Shown here piece after piece: positions 1 through 6,067 of a stretch of 64,000 bases of DNA. The stretch spans positions 1 to 64,000 of the forward strand of contig JAUSAZ010000140.1 of assembly GCA_030652255.1 (NCBI GenBank), written 5' to 3'. The translations under genes were made by a program, and so were the position numbers. The DNA is from Myxococcales bacterium (lineage in GTDB: Bacteria; Myxococcota_A; Polyangia; Polyangiales; Ga0077539). Below the pieces are notes generated by a model. It searched no databases and was not told the origin of the DNA. It saw only the letters and a list, made by a program, of their open reading frames with translations. Position 1 is the stretch's first letter, and each line of letters begins with the position of its first letter.

Positions 1-62
1 GGGCCCACGAAACAGCGATCCTGGCCTTGCGGGCATCGCCGAGAACATTCCGGGAAGGATCA

Positions 63-174
63 GGGTTGAAACCCACGGCAGCCTAAGGTGAAGGCCGCAA
101 GCGGCCTGTCCGATGTCCAGGCACAGTGACCAGCCCGCCGCGGGCTTTCCCTTGGCTGCCGTGGGTTTCAACCC
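63..174. repeat. 21-bp perfect inverted repeat (GGGTTGAAACCCACGGCAGCC at 63-83; reverse complement at 154-174); the right copy extends to a ~30-bp imperfect palindrome 154-183
   Basis: Read directly from sequence; arms separated by 70 nt. Confidence 0.8.
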
Positions 175-483
175 GCGGCAGCCGGACGCGCGAAGTTGTG
201 CGGGTAGCCCCGCTCCCTGAACCCCCCGCACGGCCGAGAGGACGGCGACCCCGCCACGCCGGGCGCCTCATCCGATAGCGCGCCGGCGCCCACACGGAAC
301 GGGCGCGGCCGTGTCGTCTCCTCGGCCCTGCGGGGGCCCCACTCCAGACACTGCACTGACCTTCAATGAGCCACGGACGCTACGGATCGCCCGGGTATTC
401 GCCCGGTCGCCGCGGTGAACTGCGAGGCGCGTCGGATCATCGGAGTCTCTCCTTCGTAAAGGGTTCCAGTCGGGTGACGGCGA

Positions 484-978
484 TCAGCCGTCGAGGTAGT
501 CGATCCACGCTGTGTGCGGCGCCTCGGCGCGGGCCACGGCGCACATGCGGGCGGGCCGCACGGGGGTGCGCGCGAGGGGCATCCGGGCCTGCTCGGGGGT
601 GCGGTCGGCCTTGCGGCCGTTGCACGTGGCGCAGCAGGTCACGATGTTGGTCCACTCCATCCGGCCGCCGCGGGCGCGGGGGAGGACGTGGTCGAGGGTG
701 AGCCGCGAGGTGCCCGGCTGCGCCCCGCAGTACTGGCAGGTGTAGTCGTCGCGGCGGTACACGTTGCAGCGCGAGAACTTCACCCGGCGGTCGTGCCGGG
801 CGTAGCGGCGGAGGCGCACCACCGAGGGCATCGCGACGGAGGTGGCGATGCCTCGGATGATCTCGTCGTAGGCCTCCACCATCTCGGCCTTGCCCAGGAA
901 GAGCAGCGTGACGGCCCGCTGCCACGAGATGATCTTCAGCGGCTCGAAGGTGACGTTGAGCAGGAGCGTGGCAGACAT
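484..978 (-). CDS. HNH endonuclease family protein
   Basis: Translation has CQYCG ... LTLDHVLPRARGG ... WTNIVTCCATCNGRKADRTPEQA, the canonical HNH/zinc core. Confidence 0.9.
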   Translation of the reverse strand: MSATLLLNVTFEPLKIISWQRAVTLLFLGKAEMVEAYDEIIRGIATSVAMPSVVRLRRYARHDRRVKFSRCNVYRRDDYTCQYCGAQPGTSRLTLDHVLPRARGGRMEWTNIVTCCATCNGRKADRTPEQARMPLARTPVRPARMCAVARAEAPHTAWIDYLDG

Positions 979-1169
979 CGGCGTTGGGTCTCTCGTTCAG
1001 GGTTTCTGTTTTCGACGCGTGGGCTTCATGGAGTGTCGGGTGACGTTCCGGGGTTGTGGGGTGGCGCGGGCTTCATCCGACCACCCGGTGGTTGTCCAAT
1101 GGACATCGGGCATGACCGCCCGTCGTGCCCGCCGCGGAAACGGCCGCGGGCACTGCGTTGAAGACAATG

Positions 1170-1216
1170 AAAAAGGCCGCTGCCCTCCCAAGTGTCTGGT
1201 GGAGGAGCAGCGGCCT
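1170..1216 (-). terminator. Rho-independent terminator-like hairpin
   Basis: On the minus strand AGGCCGCTGC-TCCTCC...GGGAGG-GCAGCGGCCT is followed by TTTTT; 10-bp outer stem plus inner CCTCC/GGAGG pairing. Confidence 0.7.
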
Positions 1217-1447
1217 CTCGTGGGCCCCTGGGAGAGTCGTTGGCCGGTATTACCCGGTGGCTGACTCCGCTCCTCCCACCCGCCACGTCCGCCGCGGGTG
1301 GTCGCCGATGGCGCAGGCTTCACCGCCGCAAAACCCGCGGTAATCGCGGGTGTTGGCGAGGGGCGAAGGCTTCATCTGGCTGCGCTTGATCGGCATGGTG
1401 GATGGTTGAAGAGATGACCTCAAACGAGAACGATGGAGATACGAACC
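1170..1447 (-). ncRNA. Candidate structured RNA / attenuator leader upstream of HNH gene
   Basis: Several nested stems on the minus strand (1333-1339/1345-1351, 1276-1283/1294-1301, 1201-1208/1269-1276, 1244-1247/1254-1257) ending in a terminator whose 3'-pairing strand competes with the 1201-1208/1269-1276 stem. Possible -35 TTGACC at 1484-1479. Confidence 0.4.
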
Positions 1448-1534
1448 GTCGATGGCATTACCAGACCACCAGACGCATGGTCAAGCGAGTCGGTCCATTT
1501 TTTCTTGGCACACGATTGAGAATCATCGTGTGGG

Positions 1535-2371
1535 TCAGCCGGGTCGGACGATCCATCCCTCGACGAGCACCTTCGCGGCGTTGGGGCCGGTGATGGGCGG
1601 CGGCGTCCAGAAGCCGCGGGTGCCGAGGTGCGCCGCGACGAGGGCGAGCACGGCGTCGAGGGCGTCGCCGCCGGTGTCCTGCGCGCAGGCGTTGGCCACC
1701 GGGGCGGGCAGCTCGAGCCGCAGCCCGAGGGCGCCGAGGGCCTCCGGGAGCGCGCGGATGACGGCGTAGCGCTCGGCGGTCACCTCGGTGAGCGACGCGC
1801 CCGCCTCGGAGGGCGCCGCGCGGTGCAGCAGGTACGGCAGGCCCAGCAGGCGGAGCATCGCCGCGGGCAGGGCCTCGATGACCACCGGCCGCGCGGGGTT
1901 GAACTCCAGCGCGTCGAAGGGCAGCACGGTGACGTGGTTGCGCACCGGGGCGAGGGCGCGGGCGAAGGCGCCGAGGGCGCGCCAGCAGGGCGGCCGCGGG
2001 GCGGTGATGGAGGTGGCGCCGTGGGTGATGGCCTCGGTGTGGCGCAGGGCGCCCGGGTGCGACGCGGCGAAGGAGGCCCAGCGCGCGTCGACGAGCGAGG
2101 GGGCCGCGGTGGCGAGCTGGTGGAGCACCTGCGAGCCGTTGAGCACCATGCCGACGAGGTCGCGCGCGAGGCCGACGGGCACGCCGAGGGGGGCGTCGAC
2201 GGCGAGCACGCGCGGGGCGCCGCGGGCGAGGCGCTCGGGGAAGGTGGCGCCGACGCGGTCGATGCCGTCGACGACGAGGGCGCCGGCGCGGTCGCTGCCC
2301 CAGGCGATGTGCGTGGGGTTGGGGGGCTTGGCGGAGCTGAAGCGCACCCCCACCAGGTCGAGGTTCTCCAT
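1535..2371 (-). CDS. DUF429-like protein (predicted RNase H-fold)
   Basis: ORF with LVGVRFSSAKPPNPTHIAW... LAVDAPLGVPVG...; resembles DUF429 proteins. Confidence 0.5.
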   Translation of the reverse strand: MENLDLVGVRFSSAKPPNPTHIAWGSDRAGALVVDGIDRVGATFPERLARGAPRVLAVDAPLGVPVGLARDLVGMVLNGSQVLHQLATAAPSLVDARWASFAASHPGALRHTEAITHGATSITAPRPPCWRALGAFARALAPVRNHVTVLPFDALEFNPARPVVIEALPAAMLRLLGLPYLLHRAAPSEAGASLTEVTAERYAVIRALPEALGALGLRLELPAPVANACAQDTGGDALDAVLALVAAHLGTRGFWTPPPITGPNAAKVLVEGWIVRPG

Positions 2372-2409
2372 GACGGGCGCATTGTGCCGCGCGGCGGGAG
2401 CGGTGGATA

Positions 2410-2961
2410 GTGTGCGCGATGTTCCGGATGCCCGTCGACGCGACGCTCGACCTCGTGCTGCTCGAGCCCCGCCACGCGGCGATGCTGTTCTCGCTGGTCG
2501 ACGACAACCGCGCGCACCTGCGGCGCTACCTGCCGTGGGTCGACGGCACCCGCGCCGTGCAGGACTCGATGCAGTACATCACGGCGTCGCTGGAGCAGTT
2601 CGCGCGCTCGCAGTCCCTCCAGGTGGGCATCTTCAGCGAGAACACCCTCGCGGGCATGTGCGGCTACCACCTCATCGACTGGAACAACCGCCGCACCGGC
2701 ATCGGCTACTGGCTGGCCCAGGGGCACCAGGGCAAGGGGCTCATGACCCGGGCGGTGCGCGCGCTCACCACGCACGGCTTCGTGTCGCTGGGCCTGCACC
2801 GGCTGGAGATCCACGCGGCGACGGAGAACACGAAGTCCCGCGCCGTGGCCGAGCGCCTGGGCTTCACCCAGGAGGGCGTGGCGAAGGGCGCCGAGTGGTT
2901 GCACGAGCGCTGGGTCGACCACGCGGTGTACGCGATGCTGCCCGACCGCTGGCGGGGGTGA
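2410..2961 (+). CDS. GNAT N-acetyltransferase, RimJ/RimL type
   Basis: GYHLIDWNNRRTGIGYWLAQGHQGKGLMTRAVRALTTHGF...LHRLEIHAATENTKSRAVAERLGFTQEG, typical RimL family. Confidence 0.88.
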   Translation: MCAMFRMPVDATLDLVLLEPRHAAMLFSLVDDNRAHLRRYLPWVDGTRAVQDSMQYITASLEQFARSQSLQVGIFSENTLAGMCGYHLIDWNNRRTGIGYWLAQGHQGKGLMTRAVRALTTHGFVSLGLHRLEIHAATENTKSRAVAERLGFTQEGVAKGAEWLHERWVDHAVYAMLPDRWRG

Positions 2962-3014
2962 GGGCGCGGTTGACAACGGCCCCGCCCCGGGGCGCTCTCG
3001 GGACAGGACCCGCG

Positions 3015-3476
3015 ATGACCACCCCGACCTTCGTCTTCCGCACCTGGGCCGAGCTCACCCGCGACGAGCTCTACGCGCTGATGGCCCTCCGGCAGGAGGT
3101 CTTCGTGGTGGAGCAGCGCTGCCCCTACCTCGACGCCGACGGCTACGACCCGCAGGCCTCGCACCTGTGGTCGACGGGCGAGGGCGACGCGCGCCCGGTC
3201 GCGTACTGCCGCATCTTCCCGGCGGGCGTGAAGTACCCCGAGGCGAGCATCGGGCGGGTGGTGAGCGCGGGCGCGGCGCGTCGCACCGGGGCGGGGCGCG
3301 CGCTCATGGCCGAGGCGCTGCGGCGCATGGACGCGGCCGCGGGCGCGACGGCGGCGGTGCGCATCTCGGCGCAGTCGTACCTCCAGCGCTTCTACGAGGG
3401 CTTCGGGTTCCGGGTGGTGTCGGCGCCCTACCTCGAGGACGACATCCCCCACGTCGAGATGCTGCGCGGCGGCTGA
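3015..3476 (+). CDS. GNAT family acetyltransferase, ElaA-like
   Basis: ELYALMALRQEVFVVEQRCPYLDADGYDPQASHLW ... IGRVVSAGAARRTGAGRALM matches the ElaA pattern. Confidence 0.88.
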   Translation: MTTPTFVFRTWAELTRDELYALMALRQEVFVVEQRCPYLDADGYDPQASHLWSTGEGDARPVAYCRIFPAGVKYPEASIGRVVSAGAARRTGAGRALMAEALRRMDAAAGATAAVRISAQSYLQRFYEGFGFRVVSAPYLEDDIPHVEMLRGG

Positions 3477-3503
3477 GGGTCGGTCGGATACACTGCGCCG
3501 ACG

Positions 3504-4655
3504 ATGTCCTTCCGCTTCTCCGTGAGCGCCGTCGACCCGGGCTCGCGCGCGCGCCGCGGCGCGATCATCACCCCCCACGGCCGGGCCGAGACGCCCGCCT
3601 TCATGACCGTCGGCACGCGCGCCACGGTCACCGGCCTCACCCCCGCCGACCTGCGCGAGGTGGGCGCCCAGGTGGTGCTCGGCAACACCTACCACCTGAT
3701 GCTGCGCCCGGGCATCGAGGCCTTCCGGCGCGTCGGGGGCGTGCACCGCTTCATGGGCTGGGACGGCCCGATGCTCACCGACTCCGGCGGCTACCAGATC
3801 TTCTCGCTGCCGGGCGACCGCACCATCAACGAGCGCGGCGCGCGCTTCCGCAGCTACATCGACCAGAGCTTCCACCTGCTGTCGCCCGAGCGCTCGATCG
3901 AGCTCCAGACGGCCATCGGCGCCGACATCATGATGGTGCTCGACGTGTGCGTCGACGCGCGCTCCGACGAGGCCACCACCCGCGCCGCGATGGAGCGCAC
4001 CCACCGCTGGGCGCTGCGCTCGCTCGCCGCGCGCACGGACTCCCCGCAGGCGCTCTTCGCCATCATGCAGGGGGGTGTGTTTCCCGAACTGCGCAAGGCC
4101 TCCGCGGGCTTCCTCACCGACCACGCCTTCGACGGCTACGCCATCGGGGGCCTCGCCGTCGGCGACACGCGGGCGCAGCGCGAGGACATCACCCACTTCG
4201 CGGCCGAGCTGCTGCCGCCCGACAAGCCGCGCTACCTGATGGGCGTCGGCACGCCGCCCGACCTGCTGCACGCGATGCTGGGCGGGGTCGACATGTTCGA
4301 TTGCATCCTGCCCACCAACCTGGCGTGGCAGGCGACGGCCTTCACCTCGACGGGCCGGGTGAAGCTCACCCGCGGGGCGCACGCGAAGGACGACCGCACG
4401 CTCGACGCGGCGTGCACCTGCGCGACGTGCACCACCTTCAGCCGGGCCTACCTGCACCACCTGTTCAAGTGCGGCGAGCCGCTGGGCGCGAGGCTGGTGT
4501 CGATGCACAACCTCACGCACTACCAGGCGCTGATGACCGAGGCGCGCGCGGCGATCACCGCGGGCACCTACGCGGCCTATGCGCGAGAGAAGCTGGAGGC
4601 CATCGACCGGCACGAGCACGGCGGTCGGCGCATGGGCGCGGCGTCGGAGCCGTGA
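3504..4655 (+). CDS. tgt: tRNA-guanine (queuine) transglycosylase
   Basis: FMTVGTRATVTGLTPADLREVGAQVVLGNTYHLMLRPG, DSGGYQIFSL, GGLAVGD, CTCATCTTFSRAYLHHLFK (zinc site). Confidence 0.96.
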   Translation: MSFRFSVSAVDPGSRARRGAIITPHGRAETPAFMTVGTRATVTGLTPADLREVGAQVVLGNTYHLMLRPGIEAFRRVGGVHRFMGWDGPMLTDSGGYQIFSLPGDRTINERGARFRSYIDQSFHLLSPERSIELQTAIGADIMMVLDVCVDARSDEATTRAAMERTHRWALRSLAARTDSPQALFAIMQGGVFPELRKASAGFLTDHAFDGYAIGGLAVGDTRAQREDITHFAAELLPPDKPRYLMGVGTPPDLLHAMLGGVDMFDCILPTNLAWQATAFTSTGRVKLTRGAHAKDDRTLDAACTCATCTTFSRAYLHHLFKCGEPLGARLVSMHNLTHYQALMTEARAAITAGTYAAYAREKLEAIDRHEHGGRRMGAASEP

Positions 4656-4784
4656 GCGGGAGCTCTAACCTCGTCGCAAGGGATGTGAAAGGTCGAGCGG
4701 AGCACCCGCCCAGGCCCGCAGTCCCCGGCCTCGCCCTCCGAGGGGAGCACCCGTCCGCGCCTGCAATCACCCAGCGAGCGTCGG

Positions 4785-4938
4785 GAGAAGAACCGCAAGG
4801 GGGGGAAGGGGCGCAAGGGATCGATGGGATGGGCGGTAGGGCACTCCCGGTCGTCGCCCGCGTGGCCGGTTGACCCTGGTGATCTCCTCCACCGCTTCCT
4901 CCTCCCTTGCGCCCCTTGCGCCCCTTGCGGTTCTTCTC
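4785..4938. repeat. Dispersed palindromic element, copy 1 (36-nt inner arms 4785-4820 / 4903-4938; flanking homology about 4685-5075)
   Basis: GAGAAGAACCGCAAGG...CGCAAGGGA pairs with TCCCTTGCGCCCCTTGCGCCCCTTGCGGTTCTTCTC with 2 mismatches. Confidence 0.85.
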
Positions 4939-5341
4939 GCCCGACGCACGCGCTGCAGTTCTCCCCCAACGAGCGCAGCGGCACCTCGCGTGGGCGGGCG
5001 CTCCCCTCGGAGGGCGAGGCCGGTGCTCGCAGGCGTGAGTGGGCGCTCCGATCAAGCCTTCAAGGCCCCTGAGGAAAGGCGCTGGTACACGGCGGCACAG
5101 GTCCGCGCGGGGTTCGACCGCGAGCACCCGGCGCGCTACCCGGGCTGGCAGGGCACCGACCAGCGCGTCGAGGTCACGCTCGGCGAACAGGTCGAGGTCG
5201 ACGTTGAGGAAGCGCGTCTGCGGGAGCATCACCTCCGATGACCCGCCCCCCGATCATCGTCAACGGCGCCCCATTCATTCCCGTCATCGACGTTCGCCAT
5301 GACCCTCGTCCGCACCTCGCCATCCGCGCTCGACCGGGCCA

Positions 5342-6067
5342 TTGGGCCCATGCCACACCGGCGTCGTGGGAAGCCCGACCCCGTACCGCGAAGCACCGTC
5401 TCCCACCGCGCTGCGCTGCCCCCTCTGCCTGGCCATCATGGCGAGTCCCCGTGCGGCCACGTGCCCATCCTGCGGGCTCTGGTGGGTGCTCCTGCGCGGC
5501 GACGAGCGACTCCGATCGGCCGACGGCTCCGCCTGGGGAGAGACCACGCTCCGGCTCCCGCTGCGCGCCCCCGTCCAGCTCTCATCGATCCTCATTCCCC
5601 TCGTGCTGGCGACCTACGGCTACGGCGCGGCGGCCTTCGTCTGGACCTTTCGGGCCAGCGCCACCGACCTCGCCCGCGGCGCTCTCATGCTGGTCGGCTC
5701 CCTGGTGGGGATCCTCCTCGCGACCTCCTGCAGCGCGTTCCTGTTGCAACAGCTCCTCCACTTCGTCGTGCCCGCGCGTCTGGAGGGCGACGCCGCCGCG
5801 CTGCGCGTGCGCGTCTGGAACACCCGGGACGGCCTCGCGGCAGGGTTCCGCCGAACCGACGTTCTGGTGCCGCGTGACCAGGTCGTGGGCGTCGCGCTCT
5901 CGGCCCGTCAGTGCGGCGACTCGGAGATCCTCCTCCTCCACCGCTCGGGCCTCGCGTTCAGTACCGGCTGGAGCGGTCCGCGCGCCGATGCCGTCCGCTT
6001 GAGCGGGCCCATCGTGCGCTGGGTCGCCGACCCCGGCGCCTCGCAACCGGCTGGGCTTCCGGGCTGA
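5342..6067 (+). CDS. Hypothetical membrane protein with N-terminal zinc-ribbon
   Basis: CPLCLAIMASPRAATCPSCGLWW followed by two hydrophobic segments; start codon uncertain. Confidence 0.6.
   Translation: MGPCHTGVVGSPTPYREAPSPTALRCPLCLAIMASPRAATCPSCGLWWVLLRGDERLRSADGSAWGETTLRLPLRAPVQLSSILIPLVLATYGYGAAAFVWTFRASATDLARGALMLVGSLVGILLATSCSAFLLQQLLHFVVPARLEGDAAALRVRVWNTRDGLAAGFRRTDVLVPRDQVVGVALSARQCGDSEILLLHRSGLAFSTGWSGPRADAVRLSGPIVRWVADPGASQPAGLPG

Follow-up and report, generated by a model that had tools for sequence, protein, structure and literature searches.

On the minus strand of the window, as we call the whole stretch of 64,000 nucleotides that was analysed, a gap of 556 nt between a DUF429 gene, which ends at 1535, and an HNH endonuclease gene, which starts at 978, contains a structured element (Table 1). 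The parts of this element that the earlier note had listed are all there: the stems ACCCGCG (1333-1339/1345-1351) and CCACCCGC (1276-1283/1294-1301), the pairing GGAGGAGC/GCTCCTCC (1269-1276/1201-1208) enclosing a GAGTC..CCGG-GTAATA-CCGG..GACTC hairpin, a terminator (1207-1216/1174-1183) followed by five Ts, and the box TTGACC at 1484-1479. The terminator lies 191 nt upstream of the HNH start codon. The 164-aa protein encoded there matched only HNH families in Pfam, and none of its matches was to the ToxN-family RNases.

Table 1 Genes and sequence features at the locus (window coordinates).
Feature	Position	Strand	Remarks
HNH endonuclease gene, 164 aa	484..978	-	Pfam HNH_5, 60 bits; presumed target of the leader
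DUF429 gene	1535..2371	-	Pfam DUF429, 29 bits; flanking, outside the element
Structured RNA, ~275 nt	1170..1448	-	Ends inferred: 5' from the promoter, 3' from the terminator
Putative promoter region	1455..1507	-	A-tract ~1507-1498; -35 TTGACC 1484-1479; extended -10 TGG-TAAKSC 1463-1455
Near-invariant block TGGTCTGGTAAKSCCATCGACGGTTCGTATCTC	1436..1468	-	Promoter -10 to transcript start
Hairpin A, CUUCGCC...GGUGAAG, apical ACCCGCG/CGCGGGU	1318..1368	-	z -3.95
Hairpin B, CCACCCGC/GCGGGUGG	1276..1301	-	One double change, rest mostly invariant
Hairpin C, GGAGUC...CCGG-loop-CCGG...GACUCU	1233..1268	-	Two double changes
Switching strand GAGGAGC (antiterminator 5' half)	1269..1275	-	Invariant; 7-bp Watson-Crick match to terminator 5' arm
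GCUCCUC	1202..1208	-	Invariant; partner is 1275-1269 (antiterminator) or the terminator
Intrinsic terminator with U-tract	1170..1216	-	Stem -29 kcal/mol here
Short ORF, 48 aa here	1250..1396	-	ATG 1396, TAA 1252-1250; probably not a protein gene

The description of this stretch as unusually structured held up. From 1455 to 1168 the minus strand folds at -131.7 kcal/mol, compared with -109.5 ± 5.3 kcal/mol for 200 dinucleotide shuffles, all of which it beat (200/200, z -4.2). In a sliding scan of an alignment with two related species (see below), z values of -4.5 to -6.6 were reached on the minus strand only between ~1378 and ~1155, and the coding windows of both flanking genes gave values of -2.6 to +2.1.

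Full-length DNA matches to the element were obtained in two congeneric species (G001, 73% identity; G002, 71%) among 57 related genomes searched. Both are Myxococcota MAGs, and the matches lie on contigs of GW715_bin.15 and RYN_369. In these two species and in the window genome (G000), the element is present as a single copy and the gene order DUF429, element, HNH is identical; the HNH proteins of the two other species are 90-92% identical to that of the window. The intrinsic terminator, which lies upstream of and co-directional with HNH, is conserved in all three. Its stem reaches -26 kcal/mol in G002, and in G001 it is aligned and conserved, but with a weaker U-tract (UUUCUC).

Folding a MAFFT alignment of the three species with RNAalifold gave -88.6 against -53.8 ± 4.8 for column-shuffled alignments (z -7.2), and the consensus fold still had a z of -4.4 when the terminator was removed. 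By part, z amounted to -3.95 for hairpin A, -4.2 for hairpin C, -7.3 for the terminator and -0.2 for the 5' leader (first 60 columns). In the consensus structure, 91.6% of the cells are paired. The homologues also provided the covariation that the earlier note had named as a check: 10 pairs were changed on both sides, compared with 4.2 ± 1.5 when the 3' letters were re-dealt (0/500), and only 1 to 5 doubly changed pairs were left when the partners were slid out of register. Six of them are found in the hairpin A region, in helices 3 and 4. The arms of hairpin C in the three homologues are GGAGUC/GACUCU, CGGAGUC/GAUUCCG and CAGGGUC/GACCCUG; taken alone, with three sequences, this hairpin does not beat shuffling (117/500). 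All these conservation statistics derive from three sequences of one genus, and the fold used is the consensus of the same alignment. On these three sequences, the compensatory changes expected of a conserved structured RNA family are present.

The earlier note had further pointed out that one strand could pair in two mutually exclusive ways, and the homologues bear this out. Neither of the 7-mers, GAGGAGC (1275-1269) and GCUCCUC (1208-1202), differs between the three species, and the columns flanking GAGGAGC are variable. The 3' arm of the terminator varies while its 5' arm stays invariant, as expected if the 5' arm has two partners. A perfect Watson-Crick block of at least 7 between the upstream RNA and the terminator arm, common to all three species, was found in 0.75% of column shuffles (P 0.0075). 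In partition functions computed for transcripts that stop short of the terminator 3' arm, the probability of the antiterminator was ~1.0 in G000, ~1.0 in G001 and ~0.5 in G002, and it fell to ~0 in the full-length transcripts, so that termination is the predicted default end state. On paper, the attenuator logic is thus real, though nothing points to a ligand or protein sensor. We also considered a third, P1-type (anti-antiterminator) state. The corresponding helix, CUCUUC/GAGGAG, had a probability of 0.2 in G000 and 0.9 in G001 but is broken in G002; this riboswitch-like state is therefore unsupported and was rejected. Of the proposal that the element is an attenuator or riboswitch, the part that stands is a structured RNA with attenuator logic, as indicated by covariation and alternative pairing in three species; the riboswitch part does not, as there is no Rfam match and, with the element known from three species of one genus, no deeply conserved aptamer core.

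Upstream of the RNA, G000, G001 and G002 show little or no variation in the A-tract, TTGACC and TGG-TAAKSC. A strict sigma-70 scan did not score this putative promoter, a result that says little for or against it in a Myxococcota genome of high GC content. The TGGTCTGGTAAKSCCATCGACGGTTCGTATCTC block shows two variable positions across the three species, and it occurs once in each of their genomes and nowhere else among 54 related genomes. We infer from these sequences that a promoter is located at 1455..1507 and that the 5' end of the RNA lies near 1448. In a fourth genome (G003) the A-tract and the -35 box are kept, and the sequence is interrupted before the -10 box is reached.

We found the element in few genomes. 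A pattern derived from its invariant 5' block and run against 85,462 GTDB species genomes retrieved only these genomes and unrelated matches. With a covariance model built on the full-length element, convincing matches among 184 genomes of the order were restricted to the same three species. When it was run on 379 genomes of the phylum, among them G000 but neither G001 nor G002, the model recovered that of the window and, beyond it, two partial matches of ~28 bits. The sub-threshold matches of the model were partial, with E values of 0.0007-0.08 and ~18-28 bits, and the searches over more than 40 genomes were run under stricter filters. A DNA search of 13 family members gave no homologue beyond the same three species, and none was found in phages or plasmids (blastn) or in viral contigs (pattern search).

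In the genomes searched, the element was never found apart from this HNH gene. The DUF429 gene also occurs in G003 and G004, both without the RNA. In G003 a dispersed repeat, reached 220 nt past DUF429, terminates the contig, which keeps the lack of the RNA there from serving as evidence for its function. In G004, DUF429 is followed by a convergent FKBP-type gene with neither the RNA nor a close HNH gene in between; in G001 the convergent FKBP-type gene lies beyond HNH. The presence of the RNA and that of HNH go together in the genomes seen, a small and fragmented sample. Most genomes of the genus carry the dispersed repeat (ACACATCTCACGAAACGCC...) once or twice (L084 59-77, L094, L096, L092, L093, L097, L095), and in G003 a copy lies directly against the broken promoter.

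These observations suggest, with a probability that we put at about 0.45, that the element is a lineage-specific structured leader of ~275 nt that would limit read-through into HNH by termination and so keep its expression low, with a presumed releasing signal. Its fold is conserved with compensatory changes and confined to the interval, and in all three species its terminator faces HNH on the same strand. The leader RNA would be transcribed from its own promoter and would end at the intrinsic terminator. As the transcript emerges, GAGGAGC would pair first with GCUCCUC to form the antiterminator; once the 3' arm of the terminator is made, the stronger terminator hairpin would win. By default, most transcripts would then stop and give a short RNA, and a fraction would read into HNH. 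Stabilisation of the antiterminator, be it by a bound protein, a tRNA, a ribosome, a metabolite or polymerase pausing, would allow more HNH expression. Against this interpretation, the evidence comes from three sequences of one genus, and no sensor core can be recognised in them. Furthermore, relatives of the HNH gene elsewhere do without the RNA.

The main rival to a leader is a free-standing sRNA gene, in which a stable RNA would act in trans or bind a protein and HNH would be a mere neighbour with its own promoter. We consider it somewhat less likely than the leader. The element forms a self-contained unit with an A-tract, a -35-like box and a terminator, its 5' end is conserved, and most transcripts would end at the terminator, which is strong in two of the three species. 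Non-coding sequences conserved between the terminator and HNH could represent a separate promoter. A dyad, TGTCC-N3-GGACA (window 1105-1085, minus strand), possibly an operator or a small hairpin, is conserved there in three species, and a 10-codon uORF is found in two; HNH may therefore have its own promoter. A simple sRNA would, however, have no need of the conserved antiterminator pairing, and the element always lies directly upstream of HNH and never occurs without it. The short uORF (window 1030-979, minus strand) immediately precedes the HNH Shine-Dalgarno sequence and encodes MKPTRRKQKP-stop; at the same site, MKLTRRRQTH-stop is found in G002 and MKISK-stop or MNISM-stop in other genera (L021-L023). 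The stop codon of this uORF often touches the Shine-Dalgarno sequence, and translational coupling is possible.

A second element is present behind HNH (window 195-450, minus strand; L002 584-813; L003 391-611). It is 83-87% identical between the three loci and, as a whole, was found only in the same three species. It contains a 25-codon peptide ORF, M[IV]RRASQFTAATGRIPGRS.. (440-363), with a Shine-Dalgarno-like AAGGAG. Changes in this ORF are mostly synonymous: in its first 19 codons, 6 of 7 variable sites are at third positions, in contrast to the ORF at 1396-1250 considered below. The peptide ORF is followed by a large branched hairpin (~222-337; z -5.7 on the minus strand and -8.6 on the plus strand). 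The sequence RASQFTAATG behind the window HNH resembles RASQHTAATG in a frame upstream of HNH in G005 (L020 2295-2266, minus strand), which may be due to chance.

The HNH gene belongs to a family associated with tRNA genes. At 18 of 27 related Myxococcota loci it is surrounded by tRNA genes on its own strand; at 17 loci the end of an upstream tRNA is less than 400 nt away, and in 13 of these 17 this is a tRNA-Leu. Likewise, the distance from a tRNA-Leu to the start of HNH is 14 nt in Myxococcus phage Mx1 and, within an array, 28 nt in virus Rctr197k (loci of the family: L020-L046, L111 and L114). HNH genes are the commonest protein genes of mycobacterial tRNA arrays (PMC5966550). The structured RNA occupies the position held elsewhere by tRNA-Leu. 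No tRNA or tRNA relic was detected by ARAGORN in the window or by Rfam in 980-1560, and the sole tRNA kept in the genus of the window is a Thr(CGT) in G002, 14 nt after the HNH match. A new RNA family might have replaced the tRNA-Leu in front of a tRNA-array HNH nuclease and now control or partner this nuclease, forming with the second element (450-195) a module left from a tRNA array. We regard this scenario as unlikely.

We also considered a module of RNA and nuclease arranged like a type III toxin-antitoxin locus, in which a leaky terminator would follow an abundant RNA that binds the nuclease and restrains or guides it. The parts follow one another as in ToxI-terminator-ToxN, a system whose RNA:protein ratio is set by the terminator (PMC5772629). 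Yet the RNA does not consist of tandem repeats, none having been found in it, and the protein is an HNH_5 nuclease rather than a ToxN-fold RNase. Moreover, the HNH relatives without the RNA indicate that restraint does not generally depend on it. The probability of such a module appears very low to us.

We further considered the possibility that the short ORF at 1396-1250 is a small-protein gene or a translated leader peptide of 48-52 codons, the structure being a by-product of GC-rich coding sequence. The frame is also open in the other two species, with 51 and 52 aa and in-frame indels, and its in-frame amino-acid score exceeds that of column shuffles (P 0.0035). Yet its dN/dS is 0.8-1.05, its changes are spread evenly over the three codon positions, it has no Shine-Dalgarno sequence at a normal distance, and the strong conserved RNA structure runs through it. 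With a dN/dS near 1 it shows no purifying selection on the amino-acid sequence, and the ORF was rejected as a protein on this ground; matches to it outside the genus (E 0.001-0.1) were taken as chance. From its pattern of substitution, it is probably not a protein gene, and we give a coding origin of the structure very little credence.

No family in Rfam 15 reached its gathering score anywhere in the 64-kb window, nor did scans of the homologous loci give anything above it. At the element, the best sub-threshold matches had at most 18 bits against gathering scores of 45 to 100, and for 980-1560 the best was 17.9 bits against 65.3. The models for TPP, cobalamin and T-box gave no match in 1-6000 (E up to 10) or in 980-1560 (E up to 5), in the case of T-box despite the tRNA arrays around relatives, and those for 6S, GOLLD, ROOL and HEARO gave none in the window. 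Rfam thus yielded no known class and no confident match to a known unrelated family, and the resemblances to TPP and to a cobalamin B12 box reported in the earlier note are coincidental, neither being matched by the Rfam model concerned. A diverged member of a known riboswitch or RNA class (TPP, cobalamin, T-box, 6S, GOLLD, ROOL) would account for these short string resemblances, and structured RNAs such as GOLLD do occur in tRNA arrays alongside the tRNAs and HNH genes there (PMC5966550, PMC6582537), but given the lack of any Rfam match above gathering score in the window we find this explanation exceedingly improbable. The window also contains inverted repeats at 4785-4820/4903-4938 (36 nt, 94%) and 63-88/149-174 (26 nt, 92%); plant microRNA-like Rfam matches at 4785-4938 are caused by the former and were dismissed as spurious.

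The element is a candidate for a new RNA family, absent from Rfam and of a known kind. Its immediate reach is small, as it is known from only three uncultured species. The role and control of tRNA-array HNH genes are poorly understood, and a conserved leader would provide a testable handle on the timing of the nuclease.

Several known systems resemble this arrangement in part. The omega RNA (HEARO) associated with IscB or IsrB is likewise a non-coding RNA adjoining an HNH nuclease gene, and the HNH domain found here resembles that of IscB with 47.9 bits, under the cut-off of 175; unlike IscB, the 164-aa protein has no recognised RuvC-like part, and the RNA has no Rfam HEARO match. Type III toxin-antitoxin systems (ToxIN) share the order promoter, RNA, terminator, nuclease gene, but the present element lacks tandem repeats and precedes an HNH nuclease instead of a ToxN-type RNase. 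Mycobacterial tRNA arrays have been reported to carry HNH genes together with structured RNA (PMC5966550), and GOLLD was identified as a structured RNA of such arrays (PMC6582537). Like GOLLD, the element is a structured non-coding RNA near an HNH gene of the tRNA-array type (PMC5966550, PMC6582537). It is, however, only ~275 nt long, compared with the ~430 nt reported in mycobacterial arrays and >800 nt for many GOLLD RNAs; it lies directly upstream of HNH at a locus with almost no tRNAs left, and it has no Rfam match. Unlike bacterial transcription attenuators in general, it is known from only three species and has no recognisable sensor, be it a leader peptide, a protein site, a tRNA or a ligand. 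It resembles them in its structured leader, in an antiterminator and a terminator that exclude each other by sharing one strand, and in a terminator placed upstream of and co-directional with the gene.
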